A DNA stretch of 64,000 nucleotides, from NCBI RefSeq assembly GCF_023078375.1, contig NZ_CP095554.1:3588501-3652500 (forward strand), in the 5' to 3' direction. Source of the stretch: Roseomonas gilardii subsp. gilardii. GTDB taxonomy: Bacteria; Pseudomonadota; Alphaproteobacteria; Acetobacterales; Acetobacteraceae. This document shows, in pieces, positions 4,294 through 10,157 of this stretch. The notes under the pieces are model-generated. The model did not search any database. It saw only the letters and a list, made by a program, of their open reading frames with translations, and was not told the DNA's origin. How positions within the stretch are numbered: the first letter of the stretch is position 1; every line of letters starts with the position of its first letter. The translations under genes were made by a program, and so were the position numbers.

Positions 4294-5726
4294 TCAGGCC
4301 CGGCGCCAGGTCGTGCCCTTCGGCCCGTCCTCCAGCACGATGCCCTTCGCCGCGAGGGCGTCGCGGATGCGGTCGGCCTCGGCCCAGTCGCGCGCCTTGC
4401 GGGCGGCGAGGCGCGCCGCGATGGCGGCCTCGATCTCCGCCGCCTCGCCATCCGCCCCCCCTGGCGCCAGCCCTGCGGGTCGCTGGCCAGCAGCCCCAGC
4501 ACCCCGGCGGCCTCGCGCAGCGCCGCCGCCGCCGTGCCGGGCGCCGGCGCCTCGGACAGGCCGACACGGCCCAGCACCACGGTCGCGGAACCGCCCACGG
4601 CGCCGGTGTTGGCCAGCGTCCGCAGGTCACGCAGCCGGGCGAGCGCCAGCGGCGTGTTCAGGTCGTCCGCGAGCGGTTCCACGGCCCAGGCGGCGAGGCG
4701 CGCGGCCTGGTCCTCATCCACCTCGGCATCCGGAGGAATACGGGCCAGCAGGGCGTAGAAATCGTCCAGCTCCCGCTTCGCCTCCTCCAGCCGCTCCTGC
4801 GTGTAGTCGATCTCGGAGCGGTAATGGGTGCGCAGCAGCAGCAGCCGGAAGGCCTCCCCCGCCCAGGGCCCGTTGGCCAGGATGTCGCGCACGGTGAGGA
4901 AGTTGCCGAGCGACTTCGACATCTTCTCGCCATTCACCCGGAGCATGCCGTTGTGCATCCAGTAATGCGCGAAATGGCTGCCGGGGAAGGCGCAGCAGCT
5001 CTGCGCCACCTCGTTCTCATGGTGCGGGAAGAGCAGGTCCTGCCCACCGCCATGGATGTCGAACTCCTCGCCGAGATACTTCCACGACATGGCGGAGCAT
5101 TCGATATGCCAGCCCGGGCGGCCGCGGCCCCAGGGGCTGTCCCAGCCCGGCGTCTCGTCGTCCGAGGGCTTCCACAGCACGAAGTCGCCCGGATCGCGCT
5201 TGTAGGGCGCGACCTCGACCCGGGCGCCGGCCAGCATCTCCTCCGGATCGCGGCCCGAAAGCCGGCCGTATTCGGCATAGGCCGCGACGGAGAAGAGCAC
5301 ATGCCCCTCCGCCGCATAGGCATAGCCATTGGCGATCAGCCGTTCGATGATCGCGATCATCTCGGGGATCGTCTCGGTCGCGCGCGGCTCGTGGTCCGGC
5401 GGTGCGCAGTTCAGCGCCGCCATGTCGGCGTGGAAATCCGCCGCCGTGCGCGCGGTGATCGCGGCGATCGGCTCGCCCGTCTCGCGGGAGCGCGCGTTGA
5501 TCTTGTCGTCCACGTCCGTGATGTTGCGGACATAGGTGACGCGCGGGAACTCGCGGCGCAGGAAGCGCGTCAGCACGTCGAAGACGACGACCGGCCGCGC
5601 ATTGCCGAGATGCGCGAGGTCATAGACCGTCGGGCCGCAGACATAGAGGCGGACGTTCTTCGGGTCGATCGGCGTGAAGTCGCGCTTGCGCCGCCGGGCA
5701 CTGTCATGGAGCTGGATCTGCATCAA
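4294..5726 (-). CDS. cysS: Cysteinyl-tRNA synthetase, interrupted by a frameshift near its 3' end
   Basis: Class I synthetase charging tRNA-Cys. Visible are the zinc-site Cys in [12 protein letters not shown], the HIGH-like [13 protein letters not shown] and HHENEVAQS (further zinc ligands) and KMSKSLGN. The frame is lost at a C7 run on the plus strand (4455-4461; G7 in the gene): before it the frame reads LLASDPQGW, and after it the expected helical tail ([18 protein letters not shown], ending GTTWRRA-stop at 4294) lies in the other frame. One extra base there gives 477 residues, a normal length. Without correction the frame runs on to 3987 with low-complexity Arg-rich nonsense. The gene is essential, so a sequencing error is more likely than a real break. 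It starts 7 bp after the gltX stop. Confidence 0.93.
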
Positions 5727-5733
5727 TCGGTAC

Positions 5734-7062
5734 TCATCCCGCCGAGGCGGTGAGCCGCTGCACGGCGCGGTCGCGCCCGATCAGCGGCAGAAGGGCCTTG
5801 AGGTCGGGCCCGTGTTCCTCGCCGGTCAGCGCCCGGCGCAGCGGCCAGAACAACAGGCGGCCCTTGCGCCCCGTGCGTCCCGCCAGTTCCGCCGTCCATC
5901 GCGACCAGGTGTCACCGTTCCAGGGCTCCTCGGGCAGGCAGGCCAGGGCGGCACGGAGAAAATCCGCCTCCTCGGGCTGCTCGGAGGGAAGGATATCCCC
6001 CTCCACCACGTCGAGCCAGTCCTTTGCTTCCCCCAGCGTGTCGAGATTGCCCCGGACGGCCAGCCAGAATTCCTCCGTGGCCTCCGGCGGCAGTCGGTCG
6101 CGTACCGTGGCGAAATCCAGCCCGTGCAGGTATTTCCGGTTCAGCGCCAGCATCTGCCGGGGGTCGAAGCGCGCGGCGGAGCGGGACAGCCCCTCCAGCG
6201 ACCAGCCCGCCACCAGATCGGCCGGCATGGCGGGCACCGGGTCGCGCGGCGCGCCCAGCGCGGCGAGGTAGCCGGCCAGCGCCGCCGGCTCGATCCCATC
6301 GCGGCGGAACTGGCGCAGCGAGACGCTGTTCAGCCGCTTCGACAGCGGCGCGCCCTCGGCATCCACCAGCAGCGGCAGATGGGCGAAGCGGATCTCCCGC
6401 CCCATGCCCAGCGCGCCCATGATGTCGATCTGGATGCCGGTGTTGGTGACATGGTCCTCGCCCCGGATGACATGGGTGATCCCCGTCTCCAGGTCGTCCA
6501 CCACCGAGGTGAAGGTGTAGAGGAAGGTACCGTCCGCCCGCACCAGAACCGGGTCGGAGAGCGCCGGCAACTTCACCCGCCGGTCGCCCAGTACCATGTC
6601 GCGCCAGTTCACCTCCCCACCCGAGAGCTTGAAGCGCCAGTAGGGCCGCTTGCCATTGGCCTCGGCCTTGGCGAGCTGCTCCGGCGTCATCCGCAGCGCG
6701 GCGCGGTCATAGACCGGCGCCTTGCCCTGGCGGCGGCGCTGCTCGCGCTTGAACTCCAGCTCCTCCTCGCTCTCCAGGCAGGGATAGAGCCGGCCCTGCG
6801 CCTTCAGCTTCTCAGCCGCTGCCTCGTAGCGGGCGGTGCGGTCGGACTGGCGCAGGAACTCGTCCCAGTCGAGGCCGAGCCAGCGCAGGTCCTCCTCGAT
6901 CGCCCGGGCGTATTCGGGCTTGGAGCGTTCCGTGTCGGTGTCGTCGAGGCGCAAGAGGAACTGCCCGCCCTGGCGGCGCGCGAAAAGCCAGTTGGCCAGC
7001 GCGGCCCGGGCATTGCCGACATGGATGTAGCCCGTCGGGCTGGGGGCGAAGCGGACCTTCAT
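5734..7062 (-). CDS. gltX: Glutamyl-tRNA synthetase
   Basis: 442 residues, complete. Class I synthetase: the N-terminus [16 protein letters not shown] carries the HIGH box (HVGN), and [10 protein letters not shown] is the KMSKS equivalent. Alphaproteobacteria commonly carry two GltX paralogs; the length and the LSKRLN signature suggest the shorter one, but whether it charges tRNA-Glu or also tRNA-Gln cannot be told here. Its ATG overlaps the stop of the upstream gene (ATGA, 7059-7062), implying translational coupling, and cysS follows after 7 bp, so the genes form one operon. Confidence 0.93.
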
Positions 7063-7436
7063 GCCTCGTCCTCCCCCTCATCTTCCTCACCCAGCCGGCG
7101 CGGGTCGAGCACGCGCCAGTTGCGCTCCTCGGCATCGGCGGCGCGCGTCGCGGCGAAGCCCTTCACCTCGGCGCCGCTGCTCCAGCCCTCGCCCCCGGCA
7201 CCCAGCACATCGGCATCCTCGCCGAAGGCGAACCAGGCGGCCAGGACCTCCTCCCCGCTCATGCCCGGGGCACGGCACCGCTCGATGGAATCCCGTACAT
7301 AGCGGCGGGCGAAGGCATTGGCATGGGCCAGGCTCTCGAAGCCGCGGATCGTCTCCACCGGCTCGGCGCCATTGCCGCCGGACAGGTCGCGGATGCGGAC
7401 GGCATAGCCGCCCTCGGGGGAAAACAGGTCGCTCAT
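7059..7436 (-). CDS. Hypothetical acidic protein between nadE-like gene and gltX
   Basis: 125 residues from the ATG at 7436 (MSDLFSPEGG); frames further upstream overlap the nadE-like gene and are rejected. I do not recognise the family. It is soluble, with a compact N-terminal part containing AHANAFARRYVRDSIERC and WFAFGEDADVL, and a strongly acidic tail (EEDEGEDEA). It starts 10 bp after the nadE-like stop and overlaps the gltX start by 4 bp, so it is co-translated with gltX and may act with one of the flanking proteins (inference). Confidence 0.75.
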   Translation of the reverse strand: MSDLFSPEGGYAVRIRDLSGGNGAEPVETIRGFESLAHANAFARRYVRDSIERCRAPGMSGEEVLAAWFAFGEDADVLGAGGEGWSSGAEVKGFAATRAADAEERNWRVLDPRRLGEEDEGEDEA

Positions 7437-7446
7437 GCCGGAAGCA

Positions 7447-9036
7447 TCATGGGTAGGGGGCAGTGAATCCATTGGTGATCGGGAGGCGCCGTGCCGGAGC
7501 GGCAGGGCCGATCCCCCAGCCCGGCGGCGAGGTCCGGCGCTTGTACCCGGCCTGCGCCATGAGACGCCAGACCCGCAGCACCGTGGCCCGGTCATGCCCG
7601 TCGCGCAACAGTGTCTCCAGGCTGCCTCCCTCCGGGCCCTCGCCCGACAGGGTGCGCAGGATCGGATCGAGCTGGTCGGCCGGTGGCAGGTCGGGCGGCA
7701 GGCCGGGGCGCGGCGTCTCGGTCGGGCGCTGCAACGCCTCGGTCAGCCAGCCGCGCTCCACGCTCAGGCGGCTCAGCACGGCGGCCTCGCTGTCATAGAG
7801 GCCCGAAAGCGGCGCATAGGCCCCCGGCCCGGCGCAGCCCAGCAGGGTGCGGGAGCGGGTGGCGGAGGAGAGCAGCAGCGCCCCGCGCGCCTCCGCCAGG
7901 GTCTCCAGCAGCAGGTGGCGCAGCCGGGGCGAGATGTCGAGATTCCGGACCTCCGCCCCCAGAACGGCATGGATCGCGCCGGTGGCGGAGCCGGTCGGCA
8001 GCGTGTCGGTGCCGATGCCCAGGCGCAGCGCGCATTCCGCCGCCCGCCGGCCGGAGCGGATGCCGAGCCCCGGCAGCAGCACCGCCCGAACATGAGCGGC
8101 CCCGACAGCCTCCACCCCCAGCAGGGCCGTCAGCGCCGCCGCCGGCGTGCCATCCAGCTCCAACAGGATCTCGCCATGGCCGTTCTTCTGCACATGGGCG
8201 CGCAGCCCGGTCAGCAGCGCCTCCCAGAGCAGTTCCGGCTCCCCGGGCCGTTCAGGCAGGGGCTGCGGCACCGCCTCCCAGCCCGCATCGCCGCGCCGCC
8301 ATTCCGAAACGCGCAGGGTCTCGGCCAGGGCCGGCAGGCGCAGGGCCAGCCGATGATCGGCGTTCAGGACGAAGGAGGCGCCATCGAAGGCGATGCCGTC
8401 CTGCGCCCCGGCGAGATTGACCGAGAGCAGCGGCAGGCCCGTTTCCACCACCCGGGCCACGCCCCGGTCGATGCGCCGCTCCGCCTCGCCCGGCCGGAAG
8501 GGCTCGGCCTCCAGGGCCAGCAGGAGCTCGGCGCCGCTTTCCGACAGGGTCTCCGCCACGGCAGGCCCGGCGGAATCCGCCCCCACCATCACGCCGAGGC
8601 GCAGGCCGCGGAACACCATCGGCCCAGGGGCCGGGCCGGTCGCGAAGAGAGTGACGTCCTCCGCCAGCCCGGGCTGGCCGGGCTCATGCCGCGCCCGCCG
8701 CGCGCGGACCTGCCCGCCATCGAGGAGAAGGGCGGCGTCGTGGCAGCGCCCACCCTCCTGCCAGGGCGCGCCGAGCAGCAGGCCGGGCCCGCCATCGCCC
8801 GTGGCCTCGGCCAGATGCCGGACCCCCGCCTCGCAGGCCGCCAGCGCGGCCGGATCGCGCGCCAGATCCTCGGGCGGTGCCCCCAGCAGGGCCAGGCGCG
8901 GCACCACCAGCAGATCGGCCTCCTGCGCGGCGGCCTCGGCGCGAAGCGCCAGGATGCGGGCGGCGTTGCGCCCGATATCCCCCATCCAGGGATCGGTCTG
9001 GGCCATGGCGATGCGCAGGGAGGCGGATTCCGGCAT
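7447..9036 (-). CDS. Degenerate glutamine-dependent NAD synthetase homolog (probable pseudoenzyme)
   Basis: 529 residues from the ATG at 9036 (a TTG at 9099 is possible). Layout is that of bacterial NadE: an N-terminal nitrilase-type glutaminase domain (about 1-260; RIAMAQTDPWMGDIGRNAA) and a C-terminal synthetase domain (about 265-529) ending in the typical YKRRTSPPGWGI...PITNGF tail. The catalytic residues are gone. The Glu of the PEL motif is Arg47 (VVPRLALLGAPPEDL); the Lys region reads RARHEPGQPG; the Cys of the CED motif is Gly152 (GVMVGADSAG). In the synthetase domain the SGGxDS P-loop is DGTPAA (295-300), TTGNKSE is SSATRSR (390-396) and the GYATLYGD segment is absent. Yet the frame is intact over its full length, so it is not a decaying gene. 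First gene of an apparent operon with a small protein, gltX and cysS. Role unknown; a scaffold or regulatory role is inference. Confidence 0.8.
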   Translation of the reverse strand: MPESASLRIAMAQTDPWMGDIGRNAARILALRAEAAAQEADLLVVPRLALLGAPPEDLARDPAALAACEAGVRHLAEATGDGGPGLLLGAPWQEGGRCHDAALLLDGGQVRARRARHEPGQPGLAEDVTLFATGPAPGPMVFRGLRLGVMVGADSAGPAVAETLSESGAELLLALEAEPFRPGEAERRIDRGVARVVETGLPLLSVNLAGAQDGIAFDGASFVLNADHRLALRLPALAETLRVSEWRRGDAGWEAVPQPLPERPGEPELLWEALLTGLRAHVQKNGHGEILLELDGTPAAALTALLGVEAVGAAHVRAVLLPGLGIRSGRRAAECALRLGIGTDTLPTGSATGAIHAVLGAEVRNLDISPRLRHLLLETLAEARGALLLSSATRSRTLLGCAGPGAYAPLSGLYDSEAAVLSRLSVERGWLTEALQRPTETPRPGLPPDLPPADQLDPILRTLSGEGPEGGSLETLLRDGHDRATVLRVWRLMAQAGYKRRTSPPGWGIGPAAPARRLPITNGFTAPYP

Positions 9037-9158
9037 GGCCGGAAGGCTAAAGCAGGGTCGCGCGCGGGGGAATTCACGGAAGGCGGAAAATCCCTGCAAA
9101 ACAAAGTATTAATTGGTGATGTTCGGATGCACGGAAAAGCGTGCGCCCGGCCGTCCGC

Positions 9159-10157
9159 CTATCCTCGCGCCACCCGGCGCTTCCTGGGGCCCAGGACGCC
9201 CAGGATGATCCCGGCCGAGACCAGCGCCACCCCGGCCATGCCGCCCGGTTCCAGCACTTCCCCCAGCAGGGGCCAGGCGGCGATGGCGGCCAGGGCCGGC
9301 ACGAAGGCGGTGATGGTCGTGGCGGTGGCCGCCCCCAACGCGTTCACCGCCCGCGTGTAGAGAAAACTCGCCATCACCGCCGCGATGATGCCCTGATAGG
9401 CGAACTGCCAAAGCACCGGCCCCCAGCCGATGGCGGGCAGGTTGCTCGGCAGGAACAGCCACCAGAGCGGCAGGAAGACCGGCGCCGGCAGCAGCGCCAC
9501 GGACAGCACCGCCGTCAGCGCCGGCACGCGCCAGCGCCGCACCAGCAGCGTGTAGATGGACCAGAACACCCCCGCGAGGAGAAACAGCAGGTCGCCGCGC
9601 CAGGCGCCGGGATGCTCGCCCAGGGTCGCCCCGGCCAGGAACGCGATGCCGAGCGCCACCACCAACAGGGACAGCACGCGCTGCCGTGTCCAGCGCTCGC
9701 CCAGGAAAAGCACGGCCAGGGCGGTGGTGATGAAGGGCAGCGTGCCGATCAGCATCACCCCGGCATGCGAGGTCGGCGCGAAGGCGAAGCCGGCATAGAC
9801 GGGCAGCGCGTAGCCGAAGCCGGCGCAGAAGGCGAGCGCCGCGCCCCGGGCCAGGGACAGGCGCGGCCAGCCCAGCCAGGCCACCACCGCGAGCCCTGCC
9901 AGCAGGCTGCCGGTGAAGCGCAGCGCCGCCATGTCGCCCGCGGTGAAGGCCTGCTTCGTCGAGAGCCGCCCGGACAGCAGGAAGCCCGACCAGCAGACCA
10001 GCACGCCCAGCATGCAGAACAGGCCCAGCCGCCGTTCCCGCGCCTCCACCGCCGCGTCGCGGGCCGCGCGTCCGGCCAGGCCGGCCTCCTCCGCCGGCGC
10101 GGGGCGGATGGTCGGCGGGTCGGGCCGCGGCAGGGGCTGGGTGGCGCAATCGGGCAT
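9159..10157 (-). CDS. EamA/DMT-family transporter
   Basis: 332 residues with a charged, Pro-rich N-terminal tail (about 45 residues) and roughly ten hydrophobic helices beginning LGLFCMLGVLVCWSGFLLSG. Two EamA repeats are visible; the TSHAGVMLIGTLPFITTALAVLFLGERW stretch (about residues 129-156) is typical of the end of the first repeat, and the protein ends in a charged RKRRVARG tail. Drug/metabolite transporters of this type export amino acids, metabolites or drugs from the inner membrane; substrate unknown. It lies 122 bp upstream of the nadE-like gene on the same strand and is divergent from the dioxygenase gene. Confidence 0.85.
   Translation of the reverse strand: MPDCATQPLPRPDPPTIRPAPAEEAGLAGRAARDAAVEARERRLGLFCMLGVLVCWSGFLLSGRLSTKQAFTAGDMAALRFTGSLLAGLAVVAWLGWPRLSLARGAALAFCAGFGYALPVYAGFAFAPTSHAGVMLIGTLPFITTALAVLFLGERWTRQRVLSLLVVALGIAFLAGATLGEHPGAWRGDLLFLLAGVFWSIYTLLVRRWRVPALTAVLSVALLPAPVFLPLWWLFLPSNLPAIGWGPVLWQFAYQGIIAAVMASFLYTRAVNALGAATATTITAFVPALAAIAAWPLLGEVLEPGGMAGVALVSAGIILGVLGPRKRRVARG

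Follow-up and report, generated by a model that had tools for sequence, protein, structure and literature searches.

Within a 64,000-nucleotide stretch of the genome of Roseomonas gilardii subsp. gilardii (contig NZ_CP095554.1, positions 3,588,501 to 3,652,500 of the forward strand; this whole stretch is called the window, and its own numbering is used below), a gene on the minus strand encodes a relative of NadE2, the short glutamine-dependent synthetase of nicotinamide adenine dinucleotide (NAD), in which the motifs of both active sites have been replaced. The gene is probably a non-catalytic descendant of NadE2 that has been kept in place under purifying selection, as a folded binding protein, after the takeover of NAD synthesis by another enzyme, NadE1. 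The gene and its parts are as follows.

7447..9036, minus strand: catalytically erased ortholog of NadE2, 529 amino acids (domains, NCBIfam, alignments, synteny)
8302..9015, minus strand: nitrilase-like (CN_hydrolase) half, residues 8-245, the better conserved half (PF00795, 51.1 bits)
7534..8226, minus strand: former NAD synthetase half, residues 271-501 (PF02540, 28.7 bits)
8896..8898, minus strand: R47, replacing the glutaminase Glu (translation and alignments)
8689..8691, minus strand: R116, replacing the glutaminase Lys (alignments)
8581..8583, minus strand: G152, replacing the glutaminase Cys (alignments)
8137..8154, minus strand: DGTPAA (295-300), replacing the SGGxDS loop for adenosine triphosphate (ATP) (alignments)
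7849..7869, minus strand: SSATRSR (390-396), replacing TTGNKSE (alignments)
7810..7812, minus strand: P409, a residue typical of dead copies (comparison of dead and motif-bearing copies)
7534..7545, minus strand: YKRR (498-501), a C-terminal motif (kept in 14/14 copies of the genus)

The translation of 7447-9036 gives 529 amino acids and a stop. The protein has the layout of the NadE2-Gln group, in which a nitrilase-like domain is followed by an NAD synthase domain in about 530–560 amino acids, and both domains are above their Pfam cut-offs. The NCBIfam model PRK13981 (NF010588, short NAD+ synthase) covers residues 5-525 with 280.7 bits, which is below its cut-off of 479. By sequence, the best solved relative is the NadE of Burkholderia thailandensis (4F4H, E 3e-47). 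A preliminary description made from the letters of the DNA had recognized this two-domain layout and had also claimed that both active sites were erased, and the alignments bear out both points.

Alignments to solved NadE proteins and to 34 motif-bearing relatives place R47, R116 and G152 at the Glu, Lys and Cys positions of the glutaminase triad, with DGTPAA standing for SGGxDS and SSATRSR for TTGNKSE in the synthetase half. The residues named here are those that we take to be catalytic in the nitrilase and NadE families. The same replacements occur in two more genomes, G003 (87% identical to the window copy) and G004 (85%), so a sequencing artefact appears very unlikely as the source of the motif loss. 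The loss extends to all of the dead copies that were collected, 24 in number: 14 from the genus of the window, seven from Pseudoroseomonas (g16), one from P. wenyumeiae (L091), and those of genomes G156 and G020. Lys and Cys are gone in 24/24, the Cys position being Gly in 22 and Ala in 2, and SGGxDS or TTGNKSE is retained in none. The glutaminase Glu is still present in 8/24; the residues at the Lys position and in the former ATP loop differ among species. Since the nucleophile and the loops for ATP and substrate are all gone, the window protein, judged by its residues, cannot carry out NAD synthesis by the known mechanism.

The gene lies at the head of a short series of genes, with these neighbors.

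9159..10157, minus strand: EamA-type transporter, upstream neighbor (PF00892, 83.6 bits)
7059..7436, minus strand: conserved 125-amino-acid protein with no family match, between nadE2 and gltX (conserved in place)
5734..7062, minus strand: gltX, glutamate--tRNA ligase (TIGR00464, 338.1 bits)
4297..5723, minus strand: cysS, cysteine--tRNA ligase, with a frame break near 4455-4461 (named from its sequence)

The order nadE2, 125-amino-acid open reading frame (ORF), gltX, cysS is common to the window and to the motif-bearing NadE2 loci that were compared (G030, G060, G149, G254, G289 and Sabulicella). Because the order is identical, the window gene is to be read from this synteny as the ancestral NadE2 altered in place and not as a stray duplicate. 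For the same reason, the neighborhood is uninformative on a new role: motif-bearing NadE2 holds the same place in other genera. The preliminary description had placed the gene in an operon with two aminoacyl-tRNA synthetases, and it does lead a closely packed series that includes gltX and cysS, but this link is inherited and not specific to any role. The 125-amino-acid protein has no match in Pfam or NCBIfam; it was found near gltX in the compared loci, those without nadE2 included. The name of cysS is presumed from its sequence rather than from a family search. Its frame shifts near codon 424 (window 4455-4461, minus strand), beside a run of G: in alignments with the CysS proteins of three relatives (479-480 amino acids), one frame of the window matches up to 422/423 and another from 425/449/450 on. 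Either a homopolymer error in the sequencing or a genuine break could explain this.

The genome contains a second, intact NAD synthetase, for which the preliminary description had advised a search. It is a long protein of 686 amino acids (1084 bits with NCBIfam PRK02628), encoded about 121 kb from the window gene, and it carries FPELCLSGY, PKIHLPNY, EICEDVW, GVSGGLDS and GTGDLSE, which we take to be intact NAD synthetase motifs. In the grouping given in the available part of PMC7196632, the counterpart of the long form is the octameric NadE1-Gln, and the window gene falls by sequence into the dimeric NadE2-Gln group. On DISPLACEMENT by NadE1 in the wider family, a sample of 299 genomes has NadE1 above the cut-off in 168 and NadE2 in 130. 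Counted by eye from the two tables, both occur together in 7 genomes (G019, G030, G060, G125, G149, G198 and G245), where about 73 would be expected under independence, a contrast that is inflated by relatedness. NadE1 and intact NadE2 are almost mutually exclusive in the family. Two of the genomes with both, G198 and G245 (L142, L143), have a NadE2 in which Cys has become Gly and most of the synthetase motifs are retained. The ratio of nonsynonymous to synonymous substitution rates (dN/dS) between these two NadE2 copies is 0.304, compared with 0.119 for the intact pair G254/G289, and their state could be an intermediate stage or an ammonia-dependent enzyme. Genus g143 shows different states: NadE2 is intact, with no NadE1 above the cut-off, in G254 and G289; a dead copy accompanies NadE1 in G156; and nadE2 has been cleanly lost from G212 and G319, which also carry NadE1. 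In the last two (L153 and L152, respectively), the EamA transporter directly adjoins the 125-amino-acid ORF and gltX. The states found in g143 and in G198/G245 suggest that the arrival of NadE1 is followed first by loss of the glutaminase nucleophile, then by erosion of the synthetase, and finally by retention or loss of the gene.

Substitutions in the dead copies bear the mark of selection on the protein. By the Nei-Gojobori (NG86) method, their dN/dS is 0.185-0.501, and by YN00 it is 0.076-0.207, in 10/10 pairs, some of which share genomes. The NG86 references are 0.101-0.255 for gltX in the same 10 pairs and 0.230-0.260 for the upstream transporter in 3 pairs; YN00 gave values for 5/10 gltX pairs and 4/10 pairs of the small ORF. 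By NG86, the evolutionary rate of the dead copies exceeds that of gltX and is close to that of the transporter. Codon maximum likelihood (ML), used as a second method, gave 0.080-0.092 in 3/3 pairs, with 0.039 for gltX and 0.047 for intact NadE2 (one pair each). In 8/8 pairs, differences at codon position 3 outnumber those at position 1 or 2 by a factor of 1.8-5.3 (chi-square p <=1.2e-5). The other two sense frames have dN/dS of 1.36-2.89 (5 ungapped pairs), the codon-aligned antisense frame has 1.31-2.09 (5/5 pairs), and the antisense frame that shares the wobble position has 0.27-0.47, higher than the sense frame in 5/5 pairs. Given this substitution pattern and the frame controls, purifying selection on the protein is real and relaxed about two-fold. 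The values lie far below 1 by all three methods, as a check proposed in the preliminary description required. That description had drawn its case for selection from the uninterrupted 529-codon frame; selection is borne out by the substitutions, and the open frame alone proved to be weak evidence. Frame openness was discarded as a proof of selection, since a neutral simulation of 8 pairs gave a chance of 5–59% per pair of meeting zero stops and an even longer antisense frame of 641 codons (7435-9360, plus strand) lies open over the same DNA.

The constraint is uneven along the protein. The N-terminal half has a lower dN/dS than the C-terminal half in 8/8 pairs, some sharing branches (pairs that include G000, G003 or G004 were divided at codon 262, the others at mid-length). 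Among the columns that are invariant in the 34 motif-bearing copies, 52/103 in the nitrilase-like half and 15/152 in the synthetase half are kept at 80% or more in the dead copies, as computed on 23 of them with G020 dropped. The dead copies also have residues of their own: four are present in at least 20/24 dead copies and in 0/34 motif-bearing ones. Pro at functional position 419 (P409 in the window) occurs in 22/24 and 0/34, respectively. In the predicted structure, the fold is kept without the catalytic residues.

These features can be put together as follows. NadE2 would have been the ancestral short NAD synthetase of the lineage, whose job passed to a long, octameric-type NadE1 encoded at another locus of the genome. 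Once relieved of catalysis, NadE2 would have lost its glutaminase residues, its ATP loop and its substrate loops and would have been retained at its locus as a folded non-catalytic protein. A binding module is proposed because the constraint falls mainly on the half with the nitrilase fold, and dimers of this fold are described for the superfamily in the available part of PMC4700190. The role would most likely be that of a nitrilase-fold dimer still holding an old partner of NadE2, with NadE1 itself or PII, a nitrogen-signalling protein, as guesses; the protein would thereby link nitrogen or NAD status to a target without substrate turnover. Intact NadE2 is reported, in the part of PMC7196632 that was available, to bind PII as a dissociable subunit, and the genome has two PII genes; for this reason, a PII-binding or NadE1-binding regulator is, by analogy, the most economical guess.

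Dead copies are not confined to the window. A search of the genus (15 genomes) found a copy at the gltX locus in 14. A profile of these 14 copies was run on 73 genomes, namely G010 of the same genus and 72 hand-picked NadE1 carriers without intact NadE2, and gave clear copies in 9: Pseudoroseomonas (7/7), G156 and G020. Frames are open in all 14 genus copies, the TGA flagged in G009 being the gene's own stop; the copy of G348 is cut off by the end of a contig. In the NadE2 tree, all 24 dead copies fall on one side of the motif-bearing copies (support 100/99), but long branches and biased composition make this tree unsafe, and G020 contributes a highly divergent copy (branch 2.8; genome 86% complete, 5% contamination). 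The tree of the adjacent gltX requires at least four changes between the dead and intact states. Set side by side, the trees point either to several origins of the dead state with convergent residues or to one origin and a return of intact NadE2 in G254/G289. The residues common to the dead copies would argue either for a shared origin or for strong convergence, and they may have been inherited from one dead ancestor and then kept over long divergence. A bolder proposal is that the dead copies form a recurrent new class of bacterial pseudo-amidotransferase. In these alphaproteobacteria, displacement by NadE1 would repeatedly have turned dead NadE2 into a nitrilase-fold regulator, still in its old place ahead of gltX and cysS, and identical residues would have become fixed in separate lineages (Cys to Gly, and switches involving Pro, Leu and Ala). 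Such a regulator would read nitrogen or NAD status, perhaps as a subunit that binds PII or NadE1. This proposal is regarded as rather doubtful.

Several observations weigh against a maintained binding protein. When the motif-bearing set was split at random two hundred times, no residues of the kind shared by the dead copies emerged, but this control ignores relatedness, and shared descent could give common residues. In the alignment behind the structure model, at least 90% of the 40 rows have intact synthetase motifs, so that the confidence of the model partly reflects them, and a single-sequence AlphaFold2 prediction for the P. wenyumeiae copy failed, its predicted local distance difference test (pLDDT) score being 35.3. 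The PII genes are distant from the nadE2 locus, at about 1.1 and 2.4 Mb. The ML dN/dS of the dead copies is about twice that of intact NadE2, and the constraint is relaxed to that extent. The genus copies range from 468 to 566 amino acids, and in 10/14 (468-485 amino acids) the synthetase half is much reduced. No match above 60 bits was found in 64 of the 73 genomes, nearly all of them hand-picked NadE1 carriers, that were searched with the profile. Finally, G010 has the 125-amino-acid ORF, gltX and cysS and lacks the copy, and the gene is also missing in G212 and G319. The dead copy is consequently dispensable in some lineages and not essential everywhere. The reading of the preliminary description is partly supported: the pseudoenzyme itself has support from the erased active sites, the intact second synthetase and the low dN/dS, limited by these three absences, and the binding, sensing or scaffolding role that it named is a proposal.

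The main rival explanation is that the frame is kept only as an operon leader, the first gene of the gltX-cysS run, through polarity or translational coupling, and that the protein itself is useless. The spacing of the genes in the window fits this idea: 10 nt separate the nadE2 stop (7447) from the following start (7436), the start of gltX is overlapped by the small ORF, and gltX and cysS are about 10 nt apart. The near copies also differ by whole codons (529, 531 and 531 amino acids). However, selection for an open frame would not conserve amino acids, and both the excess of changes at position 3 (8/8 pairs) and the ML dN/dS of about 0.09 in 3 pairs are left unexplained by a leader; moreover, the downstream genes persist where nadE2 has been lost. 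We consider a pure leader unlikely.

It is improbable as well that the gene is a decaying remnant, made redundant by NadE1, whose frame stays open by chance in GC-rich DNA. Over short times, chance alone does often leave a frame without stops (probability of zero stops 0.05-0.59 per pair), most genus copies have a shrunken C-terminal half, the gene is gone altogether from three genomes, and the NG86 values of the closest three copies (0.185-0.354) are little different from those of the transporter. Nevertheless, a transporter-like value itself marks a selected gene, and dN/dS is well below 1 in all measured pairs, with values above 1 in the other sense frames. The frames of the genus have stayed open despite gltX divergence of up to about 32%, and simple decay would not account for the residues that are common across the dead copies.

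A protein that is still an enzyme, with a changed chemistry such as an ammonia-dependent or non-nitrilase activity via other residues, has a very slim chance of being correct. The predicted fold would suit it, as would the YKRR..PPG motif at the C-terminus, since YKRR is kept in all 14 genus copies even though 10 have lost much of the synthetase half, and the Cys-to-Gly copies of G198 and G245 could illustrate such a path. On the other hand, no dead copy has retained SGGxDS or TTGNKSE or the Lys and Cys, and the Lys position and former ATP loop vary by species, unlike a new active site. That the 641-codon antisense frame is the real gene and the NadE resemblance a fossil was already ruled out by the substitution pattern and has next to no chance of being right: this frame is longer than that of NadE2, but its dN/dS exceeds 1 in 5/5 pairs (for the window copy, 1.72 against G003 and 1.63 against G004), it has 2 stops in G003, and its protein lacks a Pfam match. 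As a non-coding frame of such length, it also calls for caution with ORF-based gene calls in this genome.

A non-catalytic descendant of NadE2 can be compared with several known systems. The window protein differs from the dimeric NadE2-Gln enzymes, such as Azospirillum brasilense NadE2 and the B. thailandensis protein 4F4H, in that Glu, Lys, Cys, the ATP loop and TTGNKSE are replaced. With the long, octameric-type NadE1-Gln of Mycobacterium tuberculosis (3DLA), it shares the superfamily and the domain order, but NadE1 is a separate intact gene in this genome and the window protein matches M. tuberculosis NadE by sequence only over 7-110. Among pseudoenzymes, PDX1.2 of plants is described in the available part of PMC6829848 as a non-catalytic regulator. 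The two cases are alike in that constraint is kept, catalytic residues are lost, and an active enzyme of the pathway is present in the same genome. They differ in that the active enzyme here belongs to another subfamily and both centers of a two-domain amidotransferase are gone. A literature search of open-licence papers found no earlier report of a NadE pseudoenzyme; the kind is known, and the NadE2-derived variant appears to be new.

A real NadE2-derived pseudoenzyme lineage, displaced by NadE1, is the most likely explanation for these genes in Roseomonas-like bacteria. Because the dead protein passes both Pfam cut-offs, genomes of this type are likely to be misread as having two NAD synthetases, one of which is dead. 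The relatives show what appear to be successive stages: intact NadE2 alone, intact NadE2 beside NadE1, and the Cys-to-Gly form with most synthetase motifs (G198, G245), followed by a dead protein near full length (the window), a dead protein with a shrunken C-terminal half, and clean loss (G212, G319). With such stages at hand, what preserves a protein after the loss of its chemistry becomes directly testable. The dead copies also offer a route to what NadE2 may do besides catalysis, PII binding for instance, separately from its activity.
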